The notes under the pieces are model-generated. The model had not been told where the DNA came from. It worked only from the letters and a program-made list of their open reading frames with translations, and ran no database searches. Below, piece after piece: positions 2,150 to 35,652 of a stretch of 64,000 bases of DNA. Source of the stretch: Linnemannia hyalina (taxonomy: Eukaryota > Mortierellomycota > Mortierellomycetes > Mortierellales > Mortierellaceae); NCBI GenBank assembly GCA_019671135.1, contig JAHRHY010000012.1, positions 806,001-870,000 of the forward strand, given 5' to 3'. Position numbers and translations under genes: made by a program. Every line of letters starts with the position of its first letter. Positions within the stretch are counted from its first letter, which is position 1.

Positions 2150-3468
2150 TAGAGGTCGAGTATGAGAGATTAATGGAATGCGATCGGAAGGGTATAAGGA
2201 GGAACCGCAAAGGAATAAGGAGAGGAATGAAGGAGCCCCGGGGTATCTAGAAGGGTGTGATGGAAAGGGGGGATGAAAAGAAGGGAGGGTCCAGAAAAAA
2301 ACAAACAAGAAAGAAAGAAGAAATCGGCTGGTAGAAAGAGTGGTTTTATGTGTTTGAGGGCGGTGCGAGTGGTTTTAGTCTCTGCTCGGCTCTTCTGGGG
2401 GTTAATGGCGGGGCTGGTGGCTGCAGTCCTCTGTGAGCCCTGTCCCTCTCATTATAGGGCTGCAGAGAGAGACAGGAACAAAGTTGATGCACCAAGGTGT
2501 GAGTCCACCAATTGTCTTAATTGTCTTTGGGTTGATGTCATTTTGGGTGTCTTTTTCGCAACAGAGCTGGTTGCTCATCCCGGTCATCAACGCTGCTGCC
2601 ATCTCACTTCTCTTCACGCTTGCCGATTGTTCGTTCCTAAAACTTTTACACGCATACTAGGTCACTGTTCATGTCACGAATGGGGTGGTACTGAAACATG
2701 GCGTTTAGATGAACTGGGTAAACGGATCAAGAGCAAAAAAGAAAGATGTTCCTGGTGAACGTCGGGTTAGAAAGAGTGAAGGGAGGAGTCTAATAAAAGT
2801 TCTTATGCAGTGCATCCTGTTATTTTACAATGTTCCTGCCTAAATATGGCAAAAGTTGAGCGCACGCCAAGTTTTTTCCTTGTTGAATTATCCTTGAGCT
2901 GCATGGGCATCAACGTTGATCCGTATTGCACCCACAGGGGGAACAAAGTCCGCAACGTAATGTCCAATTCAAGGACAGAAGCGAGCCATGTCAGCTGGAT
3001 CACTTTTTGACCCGTTTAGGACCTAAGCTCCCCCCGCGTGATATCCACAACGGCCATTCAGAGAGGTACCACCACATTCAATTAGAAGTAGACATTATTC
3101 ACTCGGCGCATCGGGCGATCTTTTGGCCTGGTGCACGTTGTGTGGCTTTGTTCCTACAGTACCAAGATTGATTGGCAGTGAAAGTGTCAACACCAATGGC
3201 GTTTCTTGGCCCCAGCTGGCCCCTGTCTCCGTCCTCGGACTTTAAGCAGTTTTAGCACTCACCGCCATCAGCAGCCACCAGGGTTCTCGTGGGCTCATAC
3301 TTTTAGATAGTGTGGCATCCCTTGCTTTCACTACTGCTTCACTCCCCCTTCCTTTTTCCACTCTTTCTACCCATACTGCTCAGCACACAACACTACACCC
3401 TTCACCTTCATCCCCACCCCCATATCGACCGACATAACGCCAGCACATCAGGCAGAACTACAATCAAA
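2150..3468. other. Intergenic region, no supported gene
   Basis: This stretch holds the 5' leader of the exchanger gene and the promoter of the small membrane protein starting at 3469. A 161-codon open frame (2273-2758, +) and overlapping frames on both strands show no recognisable domain, no convincing start context and no splice logic. Positions 3320-3440 are C/T-rich, as is usual just upstream of start codons in this window. Confidence 0.5.
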
Positions 3469-3885
3469 ATGGCGAACCAAAAGACAATCCACAGCCGCAG
3501 AAGGTTCCTGGAAAAGTACGGCAGTGGTCCCCGGTCATACTTCAGGAGGGAAGGCGACATTGTCATGGGCGTCCTTACCATTTTACTTGTCGGTGCTGGT
3601 GCCTTTTGTCTCTCAGACTCCTCTCTCGGTATTGGATATTTTTTCCTCTTGGTTTTCATTTCTCTGCTCATCTCCTTCGTCGCCACATATATTATCCCTT
3701 CGTCTGTTTTCGACCGCTTTTGTGGTCGAAATTTATCCCTTCGATTGATTCTGCGAGCAGGGTCCTCTCCATATTTACAAAAAAAACACAGAGAGCACCC
3801 ACTCCGTCACATAAAAAAAGAGGAACCACCACGAGAGGAACTTCCATATCAACTTATCTTCCTATCACTTTTCCTTCACTTTTAA
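3469..3885 (+). CDS. Small two-segment membrane protein, unknown
   Basis: I do not recognise this family. The start is chosen at ATG 3469, which follows a pyrimidine-rich leader and an A-rich context (CAATCAAAATGG). It gives 138 residues: a basic N-terminus (HSRRRF, about residues 8-13), then two adjacent hydrophobic segments at about residues 33-50 and 53-72, then a basic tail. The open frame extends upstream to 3310, but the upstream residues are low-complexity Leu/Pro/His. An intron near the 3' end cannot be excluded, because the last 30 residues look like untranslated sequence. The role is unknown. Confidence 0.4.
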   Translation: MANQKTIHSRRRFLEKYGSGPRSYFRREGDIVMGVLTILLVGAGAFCLSDSSLGIGYFFLLVFISLLISFVATYIIPSSVFDRFCGRNLSLRLILRAGSSPYLQKKHREHPLRHIKKEEPPREELPYQLIFLSLFLHF

Positions 3886-4029
3886 ACGTCAGCGAGATGG
3901 ACAGGCAGAACAATAAGTGTGGATAAAATAGTCTCAGAGCCGAGCCTTCATAAAAGATAATGTTGTCAAAACCCTTGGACAATTCAGACGCCTCTCACTC
4001 AAAATAAGAGTTTGAATCAACCTCCATAA

Positions 4030-4561
4030 ATGAAATTGACTCCAAGACAGAAAGGAAAAAAAGAAGAGCGCTGGATCAAGGCGACAGACGGAGTGAAGAA
4101 AGATCAGACCAAGAGATGCGAAGTCAACTTATCATCGATGTTTTTTGCGTTGGTGAACGCGCTGAGTTTCCATGAAACGGCGCAGTTCGTTGCAAAGTCG
4201 GCCTGACGTCATATGTCTAACCACGCAACAACACCGACACAGCAGACTTCATCCGGCCCAGAGCGAGCAACCGACGACGATGACGCGGGCATGTCTACTC
4301 ACACAACAACATCTACACAGCAGGCTTCATGCAGTCCAAAACGAGCAGTTGACGTCGAGGATGAGGACATCGCCGACACTGCTTCCTCTAACAAACGCCT
4401 CCGACCCCTCCAGCTCCGGCTCGTCGACTCTCGTTGAAGACATACAGCGATTGCTGGCGACACAGCCATCCCAGATTAGGTTCGACGAGAGTCCTCGTGA
4501 TCTCCTTATTGCCTCTCCGCCCTCAAGATTCTATCTTGCCTTTCTCTTTATCGTGCTCTAA
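4030..4561 (+). pseudogene. Decayed copy of the XPG-N part of the XPG-Fanzor gene
   Basis: Read in one frame from ATG 4030, this resembles the start of the protein encoded at 8714. WIKATDG matches WIKEASDG, and MFFALVNALSFHETAQF matches MFFALLNSRAFYGTVSI. The frame is cut by TGA at 4204-4206, exactly where the intact copy has CGA (…QARLH versus …SA*RH). It then runs open to 4437. After a frame change it resumes with SSTLVEDIQRLLATQPSQIRF, the counterpart of NLMTQVQHLLQGGPAQIFL. Nothing after the first exon equivalent is detectable: no XPG-I, RuvC or zinc ribbon. The first residues (MKLTPRQKGK) differ from the intact MGISVLPS. It is a truncated, disabled paralogue about 4.5 kb upstream of the intact gene and in the same orientation. 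Confidence 0.7.
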
Positions 4562-4941
4562 AGATAACAAATCAACGCGTAATGTCTCAACACGACGCAT
4601 CTATTGCCTCTATCGCACTTGATTTTTAGAAATGCTCCGATCTCTCATCACTTTCCCTCAATGCAAGTAATACTTGGATATCGTAGGTAACCATAATTTT
4701 CTCAGCTCTCATGTTCACTTCCTCTTCCCACTTTCTGCTCTTTCCACCCCTTCAACTGCAACACGGTCAACGATCGCCTCCATTTTGACTATTTCTATCC
4801 ACATCCCTTCACGCACCAGTATCACCACCCGAGTCTGTCTCTTCAACGCAATCCCGCTGCTTTAGCCTCACCCCACACATCCTTCTCCTCCAGTCACTGC
4901 CACCCCAGCAAAACCATCGCAAGTTACCACCAACACCCACC
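4562..4941. other. Promoter and leader of the LDAF1-like gene
   Basis: No gene is visible. The second half is C/T-rich with runs of CCACC/CATCC, ending in CACCCACCATGG at the start codon. Confidence 0.45.
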
Positions 4942-5621
4942 ATGGCCACAACGAACATCGAGCGACAAGTCGACCAAGCCCGAGACGCCACCCATGAAAC
5001 CCCCCAGATCGTCGCCAGCAAAGCTCAATCGGCACTGGAGTCTGTCAACCAGATGGGTATAGTCCAGCACTATGTTTTCCCTCCCGCGGGATACCTCAAG
5101 AATCTATATGTCCAAGCTCCCACCAGTGTCAAGATTGGGGTCGTTGGGTTTGGAGCCATGTCGGCTTTTCCTTTGGGCTGCTTCATGGGCTTCATGGGGT
5201 TTGTCACCCTTGGGTCCTTGGTCGTTGGAGGGATTGGATTTACCATTGTTGAAGTGAGATATGTTTCTTTGGCACAATGACAATGATAATACGCACTCGA
5301 ATACCAAAGCCTGATAGACGAAACTGATCCGAAACTCCCTACCCTAACCCATTATCATCTACATGTGCCAATCATCACCTTATCTCTGTTTAGGTAGGAT
5401 TCGCAATTTTCAGCTTGGTTTTCCTGCTCCCAGCTTTGGGAGTCTCGCTGCTGGTTGCCTGCGGCGTCGGGTTGGTCAGCATGGTCGCCTATGTCGGGTA
5501 CCTCCTTTCCTGTGCAGTCCTAAGTATGATCTGGGGACATGGTGACTTGCGCAAGGCTAAGCGACAGATCCGGGAGGCCAAGCAGAGGGCTAATAAGGGC
5601 TGTCGACGAGCCAACGGCTAA
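4942..5621 (+). CDS. Promethin/LDAF1-like lipid-droplet membrane protein
   Basis: Two exons (4942-5253 and 5394-5621, phase 0; donor GTGAGA, acceptor TTTAG) give 179 residues. A polar N-terminus (MATTNIERQVDQARD) is followed by four closely spaced hydrophobic stretches rich in Gly, Val and Leu, about residues 68-80, 83-103, 104-122 and 124-144. A basic coiled tail follows (KAKRQIREAKQRANKG). This size and double-hairpin layout is that of promethin/LDAF1 (fungal Ldo16/45-related) proteins, which sit with seipin at ER sites of lipid-droplet formation. The assignment rests on architecture, not on a diagnostic motif. A four-helix membrane protein of another family is possible. Confidence 0.55.
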
Positions 5622-6953
5622 TAGAGTCGAACAATCACGAGGGACCATCGCACTAAACAATGGAACCAGGCCTCGCTTATGATAAGGACTGATTGATCTC
5701 AACAACCCCTTGAGGAATAGAGAGCGTCTTTTTTTTTTTCTTTTTTTCTTGAACTCGCCAACGCTTAAAACACTGTGGACAGTCATTCTTTTTTTTGGTT
5801 TTAGCCTTTTGAAAAGCTCTTTGTCTCCACAAGCATCTTATAATTCTTTCACTTCCTCATAAAGCAAAAAAATAAAAATCAATACACGGACGCGGTGGTC
5901 ACAACCAGCCAACGTTCACGGACACCCATCGTTAACTTGCATTATTTTTTATCGAAATGTAGTTCAAAACAAGCCAATCGGTATTGTGGGCGATGGGGAA
6001 GGGAGGTCGCACGAGTGCGGTTGCAGACAAGCAAGGGTAGCGAATGGCTGAAGGGCCGGGCTCACATAAACCACATCACCAGAAAAAGCAAAGCAAGACG
6101 AAAGGGTCAGCTTTCTGCCATGTAGATATCTCTTCAACGTCTTAGCACGGTTCGTATATAACATACCCTTCTGAAGCTGCTGCTTTACGGGCGCGTAGGT
6201 AATCGACTCACCCAATCCTTCCGAAGGCGTGGCCTTGCTCCAATTCACGCCCTTGGTGGAAACGTGCTCGCTGCGCGACCAGGTGGGCATAGTACTCCGC
6301 AGAAACCATAGAGACGGATCGAGTGCATCGAGCATACAGGTAGCATAGTCTGTAGGTTAGAGTCTGGAGACCGTCCGATGTAAATCAGCTCCCATCGCAG
6401 AGAACGTTGTGGAGGGCAGGTCTCGAAGTTCCAGTCAGACCCGCTTGCTACTGGAAGTAAAATCAAATTGGAATGGATGAACAATGCCAGTGTAGACCAC
6501 AGTTCCGGGTGGACAGTTTCCCGATCGATCGGCCTGGCCCTTCTGCATTAGAAAGAAGAGATTGTGATGGCGCTTCTGGACTACGACAGACGTGATCTTG
6601 GTGCAATGGTCAGACAGGACTTGGAAGAATGTGTATTGCTTTTGTTATATTTTATTATGAAGGAAAAGGAAGGAATAAGAAGAGTGTGCAGAAGTAAGGC
6701 AGGGGACAGATGTAAGTGAGTTATTGCAGACTGGGGAACAAGACAGGGGAACAAGGGGTTTATTTATGCTAAGGGCCGAATGAACAGAAGGAACCAAGGC
6801 GGCGCTTGGACATTGGACGGGGCTTGGATGTTGGACCGAGGCTTAGGACATTAGACGGGGCTTGGGGTTTGGGATCTTGAATGGTCAGCTGGCGAAAGTC
6901 ACGTGACGAGAAATCAGAAATCCATGGCGCGTTCAACGGAACTAGGACAAAGC
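5622..6953. other. Intergenic region, no supported gene
   Basis: The first part is the 3' UTR of the LDAF1-like gene, with T-runs at 5729-5750 and a late AATAAAAATC (5870-5880) that could serve for polyadenylation. From 5900 to 6953 only short unrelated open frames occur on both strands. None has a recognisable motif. Confidence 0.45.
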
Positions 6954-7537
6954 CTATTTTCGCATAACCTGGACAACCTGGGGCCTGGCAGCCTTGGGGC
7001 AAAAGTGGCACTTGGGAGCATACATAACTTGTAGCTTCTTGGAAGCCGACCGAATGGCATCCACTTCGACTTGGTGGGCTTGCACAAACTGACCCTCCGA
7101 GACTCTGTTGAGGTAGAGTAATATCCTCTCAGGCTTTTTCTTGGTCCTGCAAAAGATGCAAAGAATTGCCGAAAACAGAGGTGAACGGTAGGTGAGTACG
7201 AATTCGAAGCCCATCCAACAGAATTCGACACTTTCTCAGATATACTTACGAAGCAAAGATTGCTCTCGCAAGCTCGACGACCATAAGTGTCCTCGAGGTC
7301 TGCGATAGTTTCTAGGCGCGCTCCTTGGGTTCGGATAGAGGTTGCATACTTGGCGTCGCGGGACGAAGGATGGTTAGTAATGACTAGGGCGGGCAGAATA
7401 CGCCCGCTCAGTGCGCCCATCACGTTTGAGCAGCACAATCTGGTTAATGATCCGTCTGTTGATTGGGGGCTGACATCGGGAGGTGATGGTGACATCTTGA
7501 TGGTGGATGTTGATGTTGGGGAGTGTTTCGAGCTCAA
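6954..7537 (-). pseudogene. Possible broken two-exon gene, unknown
   Basis: An upstream open frame starting near 7537 or at the Met at 7495 ends with YGRRACESNLCF at a good donor (TTC|GTAAGTATATC, near 7250). A downstream open frame contains KPERILLYLNRVSEGQ and VMYAPKCHFCPKAA and stops at 6954. Its only nearby acceptor is TTTGCAG|GACC, near 7148. Both pieces look protein-like, including a CxxC pair, but the donor and acceptor leave the second piece out of frame. Either an exon is missed or the gene has a small indel. I do not recognise the family and give no function. Confidence 0.25.
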
Positions 7538-7899
7538 AGAAATTTGCGGACGTTGCAGACTTGGCCTAGATTGGCGTCGTGACGAGTTCAGTCAGCTTGA
7601 TAAAGGCGGATATGGTTGACGCTATTGTTCCAGGAGAGTGTAGAGTGATGAGTGTGCAAATGTGTGGTTGACTTAAGGTTCGTTATTTGTTTACTGTGTG
7701 TACTTTTGTATATGGGCGAGAGATAATAGGGGCTCAAAGGGCCAACAAGAGAAGCAGAGATACAATGAGAGAGGCAAAACGAGAATATGGTTTGCGATGT
7801 TGACCATCACCCAAGGTACGAATAAAACAGGCCTTTTTTTTTGTTTTTTTTGAAGCAAAACCATAGCCCTGCCATTTCCACAATAAACTCTTGGGTTAT

Positions 7900-8300
7900 T
7901 GTTTTGGTGACTTCATGCTGCATGGTGTGGAAACAAAGAGAGAGAGAGAGGCAAAAGGAAAAAAGAAAGGGACAATGAGAGAACAAAAGGTGTTTGTGAT
8001 GGTGACCATCATCCACGGTATGCATGAAGCAGGTTATTGTGGAAATGGTTTCTTGCTGTATGATATGGAAACAAAGAGGGAGAGAGAGAGAGGCGAAAGG
8101 AAAAAAGAAAGGGACAATGAGAGAACCAAAAAGAGACATGAAAGAGACATGAAAGAGATATGAAAGAGACAAAAGGTGTTTGTGATGGTGACCATCATCC
8201 ACGGTATGCATGAAGCAGGTTATTGTGGAAACGGTTTCTTGCTGTATGATATGGATCCACGGTATGCATGAAGCAAGTTATCGTGGAAATGTCAGGTTAT
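7900..8300. repeat. Imperfect tandem repeat block upstream of the XPG-Fanzor gene
   Basis: Two modules recur. One is GGTGTTTGTGATGGTGACCA followed by a CATCCACGGTATGCATGAAG segment and GGTTTCTTGCTGTATGATAT; it appears from about 7988 and again from about 8173, with a partial third run at about 8252. The other is an AG-rich tract (GGAAACAAAGAGAGAGAG ... GGGACAATGAGAGAAC) at about 7927-7984 and 8066-8124. Three copies of a GAAAGAGACAT-like 11-mer sit between them (8139-8170). The block ends about 400 bp before the start codon at 8714. Confidence 0.75.
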
Positions 8301-8713
8301 TTTTGGGCTTTTGTTTTGGCGATTTGTTCCTGAATGGTATAGATTATATCGCTTGTGTGTGTTGAGTGATAGTGGTCTCGACATGTAAGCCTTTGTCCTT
8401 TCCACTGCCCACTTTTCCTATAAAATCCCGCTTCCATTTTCCTTCTTCCCTCTTTCTTTCTTCCTCTCTAACCACACTCTCCTCAGCACACCTCACATCT
8501 CACACTCTCCTCCACATCCACCTATTCCTCCACATCCACCTACATACTACTTTACATATATCTTCGCCACACCCTTTCGAAGCAACCCACAACAGCCATT
8601 CTGTAAGGCCGATGCTGGATGTGATTGCGAACCGTACTCATTATACCCTTTCACAACTTATCAAGCAAGAAGACTCACACTAGCTCTCACACTTTTCTTA
8701 ACATAGTTCAAGA

Positions 8714-11700
8714 ATGGGAATCAGTGTCCTTCCTTCATGGATCAAGGAGGCCTCCGACGGAACCGAGGAAGATCTCACCCAAAAAACATGCCATGTGGAC
8801 TTTCCGGCGATGTTTTTCGCCCTGTTGAACTCGCGTGCATTTTACGGAACCGTCAGCATCGAAGCCAGGCAGGCCCGACTGCACTACTCACTAAAAACAA
8901 CTGTCGCTACCAACGTACCAGGCGAACAAAAACATCCACATTCGCCATCTGGGTCTGAGGGGACCGAGTCGGGGAGTCCATCCATCAAACATGCTCGCCT
9001 CACATTGGGAGCTCCCTCAGGCACAAGTACATCGACCGGTCCTGCGTTTGTTGCGATCCCTCCTGGCTCGGTTCCGACAAACCTTATGACACAGGTCCAA
9101 CATCTACTGCAAGGAGGACCAGCTCAGATCTTTCTCGACAGCAATGGTACTCTCACAACAACACGTACCGAAAACAAAGGCATTGTAAGTACATTCGATT
9201 TTCAAATACAACCGGCAAAGATAAAGCTGCTGTAAGAAATATACCTAATACTATCTCATCGCTTTGTGTTTTCAATAGGACTATGGCCACATAGGCCAGG
9301 TTATTCACGACATCCTCATGAAAAAAGTCTCACAGGGGCGCACAACAATCCATGCCGACGGTCCCCGTTCGGTCGAGAAAGAGCACGCCCATCAGAAACG
9401 GGACCGTGATCTAACAACGCGGATGAGGAAACTCATGGAGGACTACGACGAAGACAAGATCAAAGGGACGAAACGGCTATACCGGCGTCTAAAGTCTGTT
9501 TATCGGGCACCACCCGATGCCGCGAGACAAGTGCTGGATGCTCTTCAGAATCTGGGGTGGACAATATGTCGCTGCCCCCACCAAGCCGACTGCTGTATTG
9601 CCCGTTGTCTCAATAATGCCGTCAAGCCGGAGGATGTACGAATCATCACCAAAGACTCTGACCTGTTGGTCTATGAGGCCTCTACATCGATCACTATTCC
9701 TGTCGGCAGTCAGTGGAAAACATTCCAGAAGCAGGACCTTATGGATCGACACCAGCTCCCCACTCCAGCCCACCTTCTTCTTCTTGGTATTTTAACAACA
9801 AACGACTATACCGACGGCGTTCCTTACTATGGCTTGGTGTCGAACGCTGACATTGTTCGGACGTTTACATTGGACGGACTCGACGGATTGAGCGACCAGG
9901 AGCGACTTGGACAATTCAAACACCACGTCATTCAGTACTTGAAGATTGTATACGACAGCGCCGACAAGCTCCAGAAGATCGCAGAGGAGTCCTACCTCCA
10001 ATATGGGAAACACATGCAACTGTATAAGAAACACGCCAAAAGGTCCTTGAACAGGGTCGAGATGACTCAGTACCAGAAGAACGTAAAAGACAGCCAGTTC
10101 GATCATGCCCTTCAGGCGTTCGTGATGTGCACCGAGCATCCTTTACCTATGGGTGGGACCGAAACGACTTCCAGCACACCCGATATCCACAGCCTTGTCA
10201 CGACTATCATTCAGGAAGTTGAGATGAAAAAGGCGAAGACCAACTGGGAGCGTTTCTCAAGGAGCCAAACATCACATACAGGACCATCAGCGCCCACACC
10301 TATTATCGACCAAGCACCTCCATTCTACAAAAAGAGTAGAAAACAAGAAATGCGCCATGGCTCACGCGCCCGGTCAAGGAGAAGGCAGAAATGGCAGAGG
10401 ACAAAGTAAGAACTTTTTAGCGTCATCTTCAGTTATATCCAGCCACTTGTATTGACTTCTATTGCTTCTGTACTAATATTATTCTTCATAACATTGGCGC
10501 GTTTATTTCTAGATTCCGATCCCGGACGGATCAAACAGATCGATACGTACCCCAAACGGTCAACCTCGAGAACGCCAGCCCCGTCGAGGACATAGAATTG
10601 TCTGGTCTGAAACCATCAACCCCTCGACCATACAAGCCAAAGGATCCCACTACCACCAACGAACAAGCTGCCACTGCCCCTGTAGCCAAGAAAAAGAAGA
10701 AGAAGAAGCATCTTGACTATCACCAGGACAAGCCTGGTTATGCTGCTCTGAAGAAGTCATTCAAGTCTGTTTTCGCCACTGTCACTCTTACCACTGGATC
10801 AGTCAAGGGGTGCCTGAAACGAGCTACCGATCTCACCCCAGCGAACGTCGACATGGTTGCTCAGAGACTTGATATGGCTGTGTCTATCGTCAATACTGCC
10901 AAGCATTTTGTCTACAAGATGCTCGAAATGCGGATCCTTGGAGAGCTACTCTCTAGTTCGCCGCCGACGTCCTTTCTGGAGGATATTCTGGATTCAGACT
11001 GGGCAGAGATTGTTATTGGGAATCTGTTGTCGTTTGTTCTCCGAGATTCGACAAAAGCACTAGGACCTACAGCCAACAAGCCAAAGTCGAAGGAAGCACA
11101 GGCGGAGGCAGTGTCGATTTTTGCGGCCTTCAAGGGGTTCCATCCGGGATTCAAGGCTGTTAACCCATCCAGCATACCCCTCGGTGTTGTCATCGATGAT
11201 CTGGCGCCCAAGATCTGTTTGGCTATGAAGTTGCATTACAAGAAGCTCCCACAGACTATACGCACAAAGGTACTAATCGCCCAATTCGTTGATGAAGCGC
11301 CATTGATAATTGGAGAGAGTGTATTGCATATTCTAATACTGTGCCTTTTTTTCTTTTTGCAATAAAATAGATGGAGAAGCTGGAGTTCGATCCCGCCCTA
11401 CTTCCAAAAGTCGAACAGGAGGATGAAGACAAACCTGGTGATGACGGCACTACTCTAGACGATGACGGTACTATTCTAGACGATGATGCCGATGATGAGA
11501 ACCCCAGGAAAAAGTCGAAAAAAATTGTCTATCAGCCTGGACACATCCGATCATGCTGGAACTATCTCATGGCACTTCCAGCGGCAAACCGACCACGTTT
11601 CTGTACCCAGTCCAAGATGGCAGACAGCTTTATCGACATTAGGGAGGAGGGACTGATGCGTATCCTTTGGGGAAGAGATGCAGGTCAAGTCGGATTGATT

Positions 11701-13206
11701 TGGAGCGGCAGCCCTCATAGCCACGACTGGGCCAACCTACAAGTCAATACGTCATTCGGGAACCTCATCAAGATGCTTTTCATTGGAGATCGAAATACGG
11801 TTCGGCTCGCAAACAAACAACAAACAACATACGGGAAACGAAGTGCTACAATGAGTGAACTCAAGGCTGCCCACCCCACCATCTATGACCAAGGACCACT
11901 TGCACGACACCTGACAGATCGAATTAACTATTACCGAACCCGACACAATGCATCCATCTCGGCCGGATCGTCGTCATCGTCCTCAGCATCTGCAGTGCCG
12001 CCGCCTTCCAACCCCCCACTATTGCCGACCCCTCCTCACATCCAAGGCGCACAGTCTTCCTTTCGGTATGCATTGAACAATTTCATCCGCACGGACGGCC
12101 ATCAGCTGCAACTTTTGGCCTATGACCTCACCAAGAGTCGGCAGGCGCCGGGTCGTAAGGAGTTTCTACGACGTATCGAGAACCAGTACCCAACCCGACA
12201 GTCGATAATTGAAGCATTCGGTCAAGACTTGGAGTCGGTGGCGGTGATTGGCATCGATCCAGGCGAAGTCGTGAGCGGTGCGTTCTGTGTGCGTCTCGAT
12301 GACAAAACTGTGGTCAACTTGTTGGTAAAGCGCGCATCACTGTATCAGCCAACACTCGCCTTCAGAGCATGGGAACAGGAATGGAGGCGACAACACCCAG
12401 CAGCCGGTCCCGCAGATAATGTCGACGCGAGCCTTTGGACGAGGAAGACGGATGACAAGAACAGGGCAACTTTTCTACCTTCGATGCATGATCTTGAGAA
12501 TGCGCTCCATTCAACAAAATACGACTCAGAGGACGCCCTCAAATCCGCGCAACGGCAGTATTTCGAGTTGGAACCGATCATTCATGGATTCTACTCATCG
12601 TCGGACTGGAAGAAGGCCGTATACCAACATAGAATGGCAAAGTTGTCAGAGATGGACATGGCGGTGGCAGGCGTGCTCCGACTTGTGAAAGAAGCATTGA
12701 AGAGTAACCCAATGGGAGGGCGTAGGGTCCTCTTCGCGTTGGGAAACGCGACTTTTCGGACAGGGTTCAACCTTACATCGGTCCACACGACGTTCTTGCG
12801 CAGACTACAGCAGAAGGTAATAATGAGAAAGGAGAGAGTAGAAAGACGATGTACGGGTGGTCGTATCTACTAGTATCGTATGTCCCTTCAATACCATGGC
12901 GATCTGGATACACAAGTATATTAATTCATTTGTCCTTTTTAAAATTGATAGAGCATGGCCCTTGGGTACAAGGTAGCGTTAGTGGATGAATATCTTACAT
13001 CTACAATGTGCCCAACCTGCGTTTCCAAGGGTGAGACGACAAGACTTGCTAAGCCCTCGATGAGAACCTGTGCGTGTGTGAAATGCAGGCGGTGGATTCA
13101 CCGAGACTTGGTGGGTGCGCACAACATTGCTATCATCGGCAAGCATTACCTTAAGCATCTCGGACGCCCCCCTTCCCTTGCAAGACCGTCGCCGCAAAGC
13201 CCATAA
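8714..13206 (+). CDS. XPG/FEN1-like nuclease fused to a Fanzor (TnpB-like) RuvC nuclease
   Basis: Five exons (8714-9184, 9279-10405, 10513-11269, 11371-12816, 12952-13206) join in frame across four GT-AG introns into 1351 residues. Residues 1-345 look like a FEN1/XPG 5' nuclease. The N-terminus is MGISVLPSWIKEA with D29 in a VDF context, D184 is in IHADGP, D261 is in PHQADCCIA, D283 and D285 are in ITKDSDLLVY, and D333 is in a helix-turn-helix-like LLLLGILTTNDYTDGVP. A linker with a seven-Lys run and an Asp-rich stretch leads to the Fanzor part. RuvC-I is VIGIDPG (D1081). The relocated glutamate typical of Fanzors is in VDEYLTS (E1280). The zinc ribbon is C1287-x2-C1290 ... C1309-x2-C1312, and RuvC-III is HRDLVGAHN (D1319). 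Fanzors are RNA-guided DNA endonucleases of transposon origin; XPG enzymes cut flaps. All key RuvC residues are present, so activity is plausible. Whether it is mobile or domesticated is unknown. Confidence 0.85.
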
Positions 13207-13219
13207 CCTCTATAGATTG

Positions 13220-13265
13220 AAACTATAGTTTTTTTATCCTAGTCTGTCAATGACTAATGACGGAC
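13220..13265 (+). other. Palindrome, T-run and hairpin just after the Fanzor stop codon
   Basis: Directly seen: a perfect 12-bp palindrome AAACTATAGTTT (13220-13231) running into seven T (13229-13235), then an 8-bp stem GTCTGTCA (13242-13249) / TGACGGAC (13258-13265) with one G-U pair and an 8-base loop. Fanzor and TnpB guide RNAs are usually encoded around the 3' end of the nuclease gene, so this is the first place to look for one. No guide or element end can be defined from sequence alone. Confidence 0.3.
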
Positions 13266-15198
13266 GAAGGGATAAGTAGTAGAGCGTTATCAGAACGCAG
13301 AATGGTGATCCAATTGCCTTTCTTGCAATCGTCAACTCTAACAAGCCCACTGCATAAACGATAGACGTACCACTACATGATGACGCAGGCTCGCAAGACG
13401 ATGGCTACGTTTCCAAACTCAGAGATAGCCTTCCACAGTTCATTTGAGACGACGAACAAGGACCAAAGCTGGAACGATGCCTCTGTCTATGTCCCTCCAA
13501 CAAACTCAGCACCAGCAGCTACCCGACCATAGAGAGGAACAGGTCGTTGTTTAAAACTCCTTATTTTAATGCACAGTACTTAATATTTCACAAACCTCAT
13601 AATAAAGAACGAGATCCCTAGGAATGAAGCGTGGTGAACAAGGTTCAAAATATGTCGATCGTCGCCATGTGCAACCGGTGACTCTGTACAATTGAGCTCA
13701 CGTGAAGACGAAGGGCGAATGGTGGCGATGGTGATGATGACTCAGCCACTGGTCTCTGGCGATCGCATGGCATTGGGATAGAACGAATAAGCAGGTGAAT
13801 ACGTGTAACATGCAGTCGTAGTGAAGTAGAAAAGGTTCGTCTCAATTTGCTCCGATATTTGCAACAAAACAAGCAGGAAAAGATCCCGGTTCCAGGATGG
13901 ATCCTCAATCGGCCATCAATCACCATGCGATGTGTAAGAAGACCTATCAACGAGAGATCTCGTACTGCACCAGGTCAACAAGAACCACTTCACTCATTCA
14001 CTTCTTCCTTCTCCTTGCTAGACCCTCCTAAGAGTTTACGCACGGTGTGTTGGTAAAGCCACAGTATTGCATGCCCCACATATTCGTTTGTTCACCTCCA
14101 CTCAGTGTTGTTCCTCTTCTTTCTTTCACTCAACTTTTTTCTCTTTTTTTATACCTACCTCTTCCTCCCATGCAATGGTCCTATTGTGTTGTTGACATAC
14201 CCCTCTTCTTGCACCACAATAACCTCTATACCCTCAAACATACTTTTTTTTACCCCTACATACCCATCCCTTATCCCTTCGTTTCATACATTTTCTGTAA
14301 GTCGGAAGACATGCCCGTGATCCACATGGTTTAGAGGCAGTTGGAATAGTGAAGGAAATCCACACTTTTTCCTGCACGCAGTGACCAATAACCACAAACA
14401 ATTCAATTACCTTTGTCCCCACCTCCCGTACGCTTCTCGTCAGCCAGCCATTCTCAACAGCTTTTTCAACCGATGGCGTTGATTCTTTGTGTTTAGTGTC
14501 TTGCCGTGTGTTTGTGCGCGTGGGTGTTTGTGTGGGGGGGCGAATTGTGGCCAGCTGTTGTTGTTTTTGGGCGGCTGACATTGATCATCGCCCCCCTTTT
14601 TTATGTTTCTCTCGCTCGCAGCACACAATGCCAGATGTCCTATTTCTTTGCTTCTTTGCCATTTTCTCTCCTCCTTCCTTCTCTCTTCCGTTACTCTTCT
14701 CGACATTCATTCCTCACGTCCTCCCCTGTCCTCCCCTCCGCTAATGTAAATGCCCATTCACCACTCCATGCACAACTTACTTTTTGAGCGTAACTATACG
14801 TTTAGATTATTTTCGCCCTGGAACGTGTGAGAGCCCGTAGTAACGAAAGAAATGCAGAACAGGAAAATGCAGAGTGACCAGTCAGGAACACAGGAAGCAG
14901 ACAAAAAGTGACGCCTACATATCATACTGCGTGGATATTCATGCTCACACGGTGTATTCTTCTTTGTCGCTTCATGTCCTCATAGGAACCCATTGACACT
15001 GACGACTCGACCTTAGGACAACTAAAGAACACATATTCAAAAGATACACCAAATCAAAAGGACGACTGCAAATCCCCTTACCCACAACAACTACGAACCA
15101 GTGCTGAGGACCATAATTGAAGCAAATCCACTCCCAGCAACCAACGCCCAACACACGCAGCGACAGGCGAAGGAATCGACAAAAACAAAAAGACTAAA
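13266..15198. other. Intergenic region, no supported gene
   Basis: No convincing gene is present. The stretch holds the 3' flank of the XPG-Fanzor gene and the promoter of the IQGAP gene. Positions 14080-14300 and 14590-14770 are strongly pyrimidine-rich and produce long but meaningless open frames. A (TG)n-like tract with GGGGGGG lies at 14505-14545. No terminal inverted repeat pairing with the region upstream of 8714 was recognised by eye. Confidence 0.45.
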
Positions 15199-35010: not shown

Positions 35011-35088
35011 ACGTGACTAGCGCCACCAACTTGACTTCATTGGGACCGGCAGTTGAAATTAGAGCCAGAATACATCTTTTCAAGATCT

Positions 35089-35171
35089 GGTAGGATGGCC
35101 GAGTTGGTCTAAGGCGCCGCACTCAAGTTGCGGTCTCGAGAGAGGCGTGGGTTCAAATCCCACTTCTACCA
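35089..35171 (+). tRNA. tRNA-Leu (anticodon CAA)
   Basis: Acceptor arm GGTAGGA pairs with TTCTACC (one G-T pair). The D-arm has GGCCGAGTTGGTCTAAGGC. The anticodon stem CCGCA/TGCGG encloses loop CTCAAGT with anticodon CAA, reading codon TTG. A long class II variable arm and the T-arm with GTTCAAATC follow. The encoded part is 83 bases, with no intron between the anticodon and its stem. A TTTT run follows a few bases after the end, suiting RNA polymerase III termination. Confidence 0.95.
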
Positions 35172-35652
35172 TCTTCTTTTGCTTCCGTTCTGGAGACTTT
35201 TTTTTACTTGACAACCCATGCTCAATTTCCGTGCTAAGTCCATGTAACACACTTTTTTGCCTCGCATTGTCTTGTTTTTATAACATACACTCACAGTTTT
35301 TGCGCTCAATTGGTCGTCAGACCCCCTACAGTCCACTTCATGAAGCTTGCGTCCCTTGTCGTCATCAAACACGGCTTGTAGATACCTAGAAGTGTCGTAT
35401 TCAACATTAGTGCTTCAATGATTGATCACCTTCAAGGAGATACCAATAGTGCTTAAAGGGAGAGCGAATGAGAACAAGTCGCCCCCAAGAGTTTCTCCTC
35501 TTTTCTTCATCTTTTTATCTCAAACACAGAAAAAGCGTGTTACATGGGCTTAGTGCGGAAAGCTAAAATTCGAACAACCCGGGTTGTCAAGTATATTAAC
35601 CTTTTTTTTTTGTTCGCGCTATCGTTTTTTGTTGCTAGGACGTACAGTACAA
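35172..35652. other. Intergenic, 3' flanks of tRNA-Leu and TAF4
   Basis: No gene was recognised; only short frames occur. Confidence 0.45.

Follow-up and report, generated by a model that had tools for sequence, protein, structure and literature searches.

A transposon gene of Linnemannia hyalina encoding a FEN1/EXO1/XPG-fold domain and a Fanzor1 in one polypeptide

Introduction

The stretch of 64,000 nucleotides of the Linnemannia hyalina genome considered here (the window; GenBank assembly GCA_019671135.1, contig JAHRHY010000012.1, positions 806,001 to 870,000, or C4:806001-870000 of the 51.5 Mb genome) contains a mobile element bearing a gene of five exons. Sequence and structure support the conclusion that this gene encodes one polypeptide, in which an N-terminal domain of the FEN1/EXO1/XPG fold is joined by a basic conserved linker to a C-terminal Fanzor1. 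They likewise support the view that the element is a transposon with inverted ends, related to the piggyBac-carrying elements of the same genome.

Gene structure and the junction of the two halves

The model proposed in the initial annotation, five exons separated by four GT-AG introns, yields 4056 nt comprising 1351 codons and a stop, with internal stops absent, and the features named there, an XPG N-terminus at the start and a zinc ribbon with RuvC-III at the end, are all present in the predicted protein. Its parts are as follows.

8714..9184, plus strand: exon 1, with the start (MGI...) of the XPG/FEN1-like half and the first acidic position, D29
9279..10405, plus strand: exon 2, with the remainder of the XPG/FEN1-like half (D184, K191, R198, Q259, D261, D283, D285, D333) and the start of the linker
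10406..10512, plus strand: intron 2 (GT-AG), at the junction, within a conserved coding block
10513..11269, plus strand: exon 3, with the conserved junction block (FRSRTD...PSTPRPYKPK) and the beginning of the Fanzor recognition lobe
11371..12816, plus strand: exon 4, with the Fanzor recognition region and RuvC, the catalytic Asp of GIDPG being residue 1081
12952..13206, plus strand: exon 5, with the catalytic Glu of VDEYL (1280), the C4 zinc ribbon, the RuvC-III HRD (Asp 1319) and the stop

That both folds belong to one chain, as was originally suggested, is supported by the gene structure, ten intact copies, a conserved junction, matches to both folds and an uninterrupted distant version. 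In the fungus's own genome each of the ten copies examined, that of the window included, has the 4056-nt frame intact along with its four GT-AG pairs. The junction intron lies inside a block, KW..S.FR.RTD...ASP...PSTPRP.KPK, which is conserved in Linnemannia, Entomortierella, Dissophora and Podila. All ten protein models of alignment A1, of which nine come from species other than this one, cross the same junction. In this alignment the junction block is covered by every row and other parts are missing in several, so that its count of invariant columns is flattered.

The distant version is found at locus L070 (C23:1073700-1078300), where a single open frame of 1398 codons extends from XPG (motifs MGIGDTF, HIDGK, GEAD, GDSD and SRNDY) through RuvC-I AMDPG, the zinc ribbon following in the next exon (PF07282, E 1.7e-10). 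Since this frame matches the Fanzor profile weakly (E 0.0075), it is chiefly on the zinc ribbon and on the succession of the motifs that the assignment of L070 as a Fanzor depends. A database protein of Linnemannia hyalina, KI688_001067, is 99% identical over 85% of the query. Models P0005 and P0007, annotated as piggyBac plus Fanzor, are in our reading probable mergers, in which the remnant of a piggyBac lying upstream has been joined to the XPG-Fanzor gene.

The two nuclease-like domains

The Fanzor half matches PF07282 in exon 5 (E=1.5e-10) and, as a regular expression that includes the Asp of GIDPG, the Fanzor1 motif D-X(125,275)-[TS][TS]XX-C4-X(5,50)-RD given in the available text of PMC3627910; the predicted structure of a relative has the fold of the solved Fanzors.

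The XPG-like half comprises the N-terminal ~530 residues of the 1351-aa protein. In a relative the fold of the FEN1/EXO1/XPG superfamily is predicted over ~286 residues including the MGI start, the closest structural matches being EXO1 and FEN1 with DNA. Matches by sequence are weak, both to XPG_I_2 in Pfam (E 0.085) and, with the A1 profile against PDB sequences, to XPG (E 0.069), the latter search finding no Fanzor entry; the single protein against the same sequences gave an XPG/FEN1 entry at E 0.16 and, at the zinc ribbon, a transposase entry at E 0.19. FEN1 has seven acidic metal ligands (D34, D86, E158, E160, D179, D181 and D233) together with K93 and R100. Mapped by eye, the ligands correspond to D29, D184, Q259, D261, D283, D285 and D333, so that, apart from positions 259 and 261, the five other acidic positions are retained in the window's family, as is the K/R pair, whose counterparts stand at +7 (Lys) and +14 (Arg) from the Asp in all three sequences compared.

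Occurrence of the pairing in the genome

The arrangement recurs across the genome. When the XPG half of the window's protein served as query, an XPG locus was found on the same strand upstream of 51 of the 91 zinc-ribbon hits, at a distance of 1.5-6.5 kb; no hit had one downstream and two had one on the other strand. A distant XPG query adds 11, raising the number with upstream XPG to 62 of 91. Viewed from the XPG side, a zinc-ribbon hit lies downstream of 51 of the 57 loci found with the first query and of 11 of the 30 further loci found with the second, many of the latter carrying stops or being short. The XPG profile matched eight of nine loci fetched, the exception being L035. At L032 (649-4240) the XPG domain is preceded by pieces of the Fanzor recognition region and stands in one frame of 576 aa with RuvC-I; this locus looks like a rearranged or decayed copy.

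Copies, ends and selection

The boundaries of the element in the window, and a remnant inside it, are as follows.

3692..13274, plus strand: transposon copy of 9583 bp, left end TTATCCCTTCGTCTG, right end ACGGACGAAGGGATA, the ends being common to independent copies
4072..4491, plus strand: decayed exon 1 of another XPG-Fanzor family, 88.6% identical to L037, with a P0009 match at 1e-38

Ten copies of the window's family, F1, were compared, nine of which have both ends defined, six being 9.53-9.82 kb long and three, with a different left part, 6.47-6.48 kb. The tenth, c49a, corresponds to the window to the right of 5668, the left end of this copy not having been found. The right end is ...GGGATA in all ten and the left end TTATCCC, once TTATACCC, while the host flanks are different in every copy, the right flank differing in all ten. 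The coding sequence overall is under purifying selection, since the distinct variant codons among the ten copies comprise 25 nonsynonymous and 22 synonymous ones, where the ratio of sites is ~3.3 to 1; divided by half, the ratio is 12:8 for XPG and 13:14 for Fanzor, the evidence being weaker for the XPG half.

Lying as it does in the variable 5' portion of the long form, the decayed exon suggests that 5' regions are chimeric or have been captured. The ten open reading frames (ORFs) in the left part of this form, one of which is an interrupted host frame, gave no match to Pfam at E 0.01, and the four tested against Pfam of the ten ORFs (at least 70 aa) left of the gene in the 6.48-kb form gave one sub-threshold match only. 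The host frame, at window positions 3307-3691, is open for a small hydrophobic protein (MANQKTIHSRRRF...) and is interrupted by the window copy, seemingly near its 3' end as judged from the right flank. Direct repeats occupy 7912-8255, immediately upstream of the gene; extra BLAST matches in copies c1 and c18 indicate that their number seems to vary between copies.

Association with piggyBac

Hits to piggyBac transposase (PF13843) collapse to 39 loci, 27 of which are followed within 5 kb, on the same strand, by an XPG locus. Reckoned over the 81 XPG loci entered for transposase proximity, such an upstream hit accompanies 27, none has one within 8 kb downstream and one has an opposite-strand hit no more than 5 kb away. 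The piggyBac-associated family F2 has left TTATCCC and right GGGATA ends, as in F1; its piggyBac looks internally deleted, the hits being confined to the two extremities of the transposase profile. No hit to PF13843 (DDE_Tnp_1_7) was found near any of the ten F1 copies, so that F1 is probably moved in trans.

Other routes were tried and rejected. For a Tc1/mariner helper, suggested by the TA at both ends, none of the 57 DDE_3 hits entered, of 58 listed, precedes an XPG locus by 5 kb or less; four of the 81 loci have one within 8 kb downstream and one has one on the other strand. The repeat that holds copy c6 was compared with nine fetched relatives that are unfilled, and a TA target duplication is unsupported by this one empty site. 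An element-specific leading T was also set aside, the pattern search being confounded by right ends. At C44:2686376-2689315 two DDE_1 transposase hits adjoin.

A candidate guide RNA at the 3' end

Between the stop codon and the element end are 68 nt, for which a structure of two hairpins is predicted (z -2.47; 5 of 200 shuffles did as well).

13207..13274, plus strand: candidate guide-RNA scaffold, two hairpins between stop codon and element end
13210-13215 paired with 13223-13228, plus strand: hairpin 1
13235-13240 paired with 13269-13274, inner stem 13242-13249 with 13258-13265, plus strand: hairpin 2
13275..13290, plus strand: predicted guide-encoding host flank, its length by analogy with SpuFz1

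Hairpin 1 stands in the same place in other families with different stems, namely CTATAG/CTATAG (F1, F2), AAGACC/GGTCTT (F7), ACGTTC/GAACGT (F8), CTGCG/CGCAG (F5), CTCCG/CGGAG (F6) and CAACAT/ATGTTG (F3). Because MAFFT failed to align the full 3' ends, this hairpin was excised and counted alone, in six of the seven stem families, F3 (loop 5 nt) being dropped. Pairing holds in 94.4% of cells, 17 cells have double changes, and the paired-cell share, the double-change cells and the covariation score were each matched by 0 of 500 shuffles, statistics that lean towards structure in that the stems were picked by eye before counting. Hairpin 2 was judged by inspection only; its closing TATCC/GGATA recurs in F1, F2, F3, F6, F7 and F8, the element end of F5 not being recognised. 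In the available text of PMC10432273, the right end for SpuFz1 has a scaffold of 75 nt, after which comes a guide of 14-15 nt, and since the 3' end here resembles this arrangement, the guide is predicted by analogy to be host DNA from 13275 onward.

A second Fanzor group in the genome (L033, L034, L035 and L036) has a different shared 3' sequence, GACGTA..GCGCCCATTSTCCT, with XPG upstream by profile in three of the four loci. Elsewhere in the window a tRNA-Leu (CAA) of 86 nt lies at 35088-35173; one tRNA was the only Rfam match at gathering thresholds in the whole window.

Proposed mechanism and alternatives

The best explanation, to which we give slightly better than an even chance, is a fused XPG-Fanzor transposon in which a guided cut at element-free sites, combined with 5' processing in cis, would lead to the element being retained or recopied. 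The 3' end of the transcript, consisting of the two hairpins and right-flanking host DNA, would serve as guide RNA, such that each copy would target its own insertion site wherever the element is absent. The Fanzor half would cut this site and the tethered XPG half would act on the exposed 5' ends or flaps, so that one protein would perform, as initially envisaged, both the guided cut and the subsequent processing of 5' end or flap. Processing by XPG would make rejoining less likely and repair from an element-bearing copy more likely, and the element would thus be retained or recopied after piggyBac-type excision, the window's family, with no recognised transposase of its own, presumably moving in trans. 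The bolder formulation, an all-in-one homing machine in which an RNA-guided Fanzor is permanently fused to a flap/5' nuclease that works on the resulting cut and biases repair in favour of a copy of the element entering this site, the fusion being widespread in Mortierellaceae mobile elements and often found with piggyBac, is held more tentatively, at somewhat below an even chance.

Several observations weigh against this picture. Across both queries 29 of the 91 zinc-ribbon hits lack an upstream XPG match, one such locus, L035, showing no XPG in the 6.2 kb read; XPG lies downstream of two of the 91 (one also has it upstream) and on the other strand at three; and 25 of 87 XPG loci (6 of 57 and 19 of 30) are without a downstream zinc-ribbon hit. 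In Benniella a 515-aa XPG-only model (P0027) is annotated as separate, and Mortierella sp. AD031 is annotated with two adjacent models (P0024, P0028) in place of one. Insertion by piggyBac duplicates a TTAA target, and neither this nor another target duplication was seen in the flanks of the nine complete F1 copies or at both ends of two F2 copies; the single empty-site comparison, at c6, shows no duplication and ~7-12 bp of target missing when filled, a loss that fits standard piggyBac insertion poorly. For hairpin 1, 38 of 500 shuffles did as well in the number of pairs with a double change (6 of 6), and 7 of 500 in that of pair types. Finally, one metal-ligand Glu position is Gln259 and the next Asp261 in the window's family, a substitution that, to judge from sequence, may weaken XPG catalysis.

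This last point underlies the most serious alternative, unlikely as we consider it, that the fusion is real and the XPG-like domain is here without catalysis, serving to position the Fanzor by binding DNA junctions or 5' ends. The XPG structure 6vbh has, by eye on alignments, Glu and Glu where Q259 and D261 stand, the Gln is kept in those family rows that cover the position, and constraint is weaker on the XPG half than on the Fanzor half; against this, the K/R pair is intact, as are the acidic residues at the five remaining positions, and Glu-Ala-Asp occupies the ligand positions in two distant loci, L070 and P0038. It is less probable still that XPG-Fanzor is itself the mobility enzyme, excising and inserting the element without a transposase. 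The three copies of the 6.48-kb form show no other recognised protein among the left-side ORFs tested, and target duplication is absent at the one empty site, yet piggyBac is found upstream of a third of the XPG loci entered, and the piggyBac-linked F2 has the same ends. A role of the XPG domain on RNA or R-loop flaps in guide-RNA maturation, rather than on DNA ends, we regard as decidedly improbable: TnpB is reported, in the available text of PMC10278001, to process its own mRNA into guide RNA, and a tethered nuclease could do likewise, but the closest structural matches, EXO1 and FEN1 with DNA, are DNA nucleases. The most improbable alternative by far is that of two neighbouring genes, with the fusion an artefact of the gene model. 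It draws on the two AD031 models and on a genomic stop codon met just after exon 2, at 10407-10409, when exon 2 is read onward, a position that falls within the junction intron. We reject it in view of the conserved junction block, the retention of the junction intron in ten intact copies, the single frame of L070 and the want of a start codon close to the Fanzor half, whose first in-frame Met lies 114 codons beyond the junction.

Relation to known systems and significance

The fused XPG-Fanzor transposon shares features with several known systems. TnpB drives the retention of bacterial insertion sequences, and the same role, guided cutting at element-free sites, would be expected here, although the present system is eukaryotic and has a second nuclease-like domain in the same chain. 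With the FEN1/EXO1/XPG (Rad2) superfamily it shares the predicted fold and most acidic positions, differing in that the domain belongs to a transposon protein, matches XPG_I_2 weakly and has Gln at one metal-ligand position. With piggyBac transposons (PF13843) it has in common short inverted ends and, in related families, an upstream transposase hit, whereas its ends, TTATCCC...GGGATA, are without TTAA duplication, and the window's family has no transposase hit.

As far as the available texts go, the Spu-1 element with Fanzor1/SpuFz1 (Saito et al. 2023, PMC10432273) shares the RuvC D/E/D, the zinc ribbon and inverted repeats, as well as a conserved non-coding stretch from stop codon to right end followed by variable host DNA. 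Compared with Fanzor1s of up to ~800 residues (PMC10711439, available text), the window protein, at 1351 aa, has an extra N-terminal XPG/FEN1-like part. The Mucor MCi-2 Fanzor elements, as described in the available text of Bao and Jurka 2013 (PMC3627910), likewise combine variable 5' parts with a near-identical Fanzor-bearing 3' part, but have no recognisable terminal inverted repeats, show 11-12-bp duplications and are presented there with no mention of an XPG domain. The initial annotation knew of no description of the pairing, and none was found among the titles and abstract starts listed from the open-licence literature on Fanzor/TnpB with XPG, FEN1, fusion, fungi or piggyBac; by term search "XPG" is absent from the main texts of PMC3627910, PMC10711439, PMC10432273, PMC11423790 and PMC12324416.

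The finding expands the known architecture of Fanzor proteins and offers a natural template for joining guided cleavage to the processing of ends. It makes the idea of retention or homing directly testable, through point mutation of either active site. The question why transposons keep Fanzors is met here by a natural union with a nuclease for end processing, which directs attention to the events that follow the cut.
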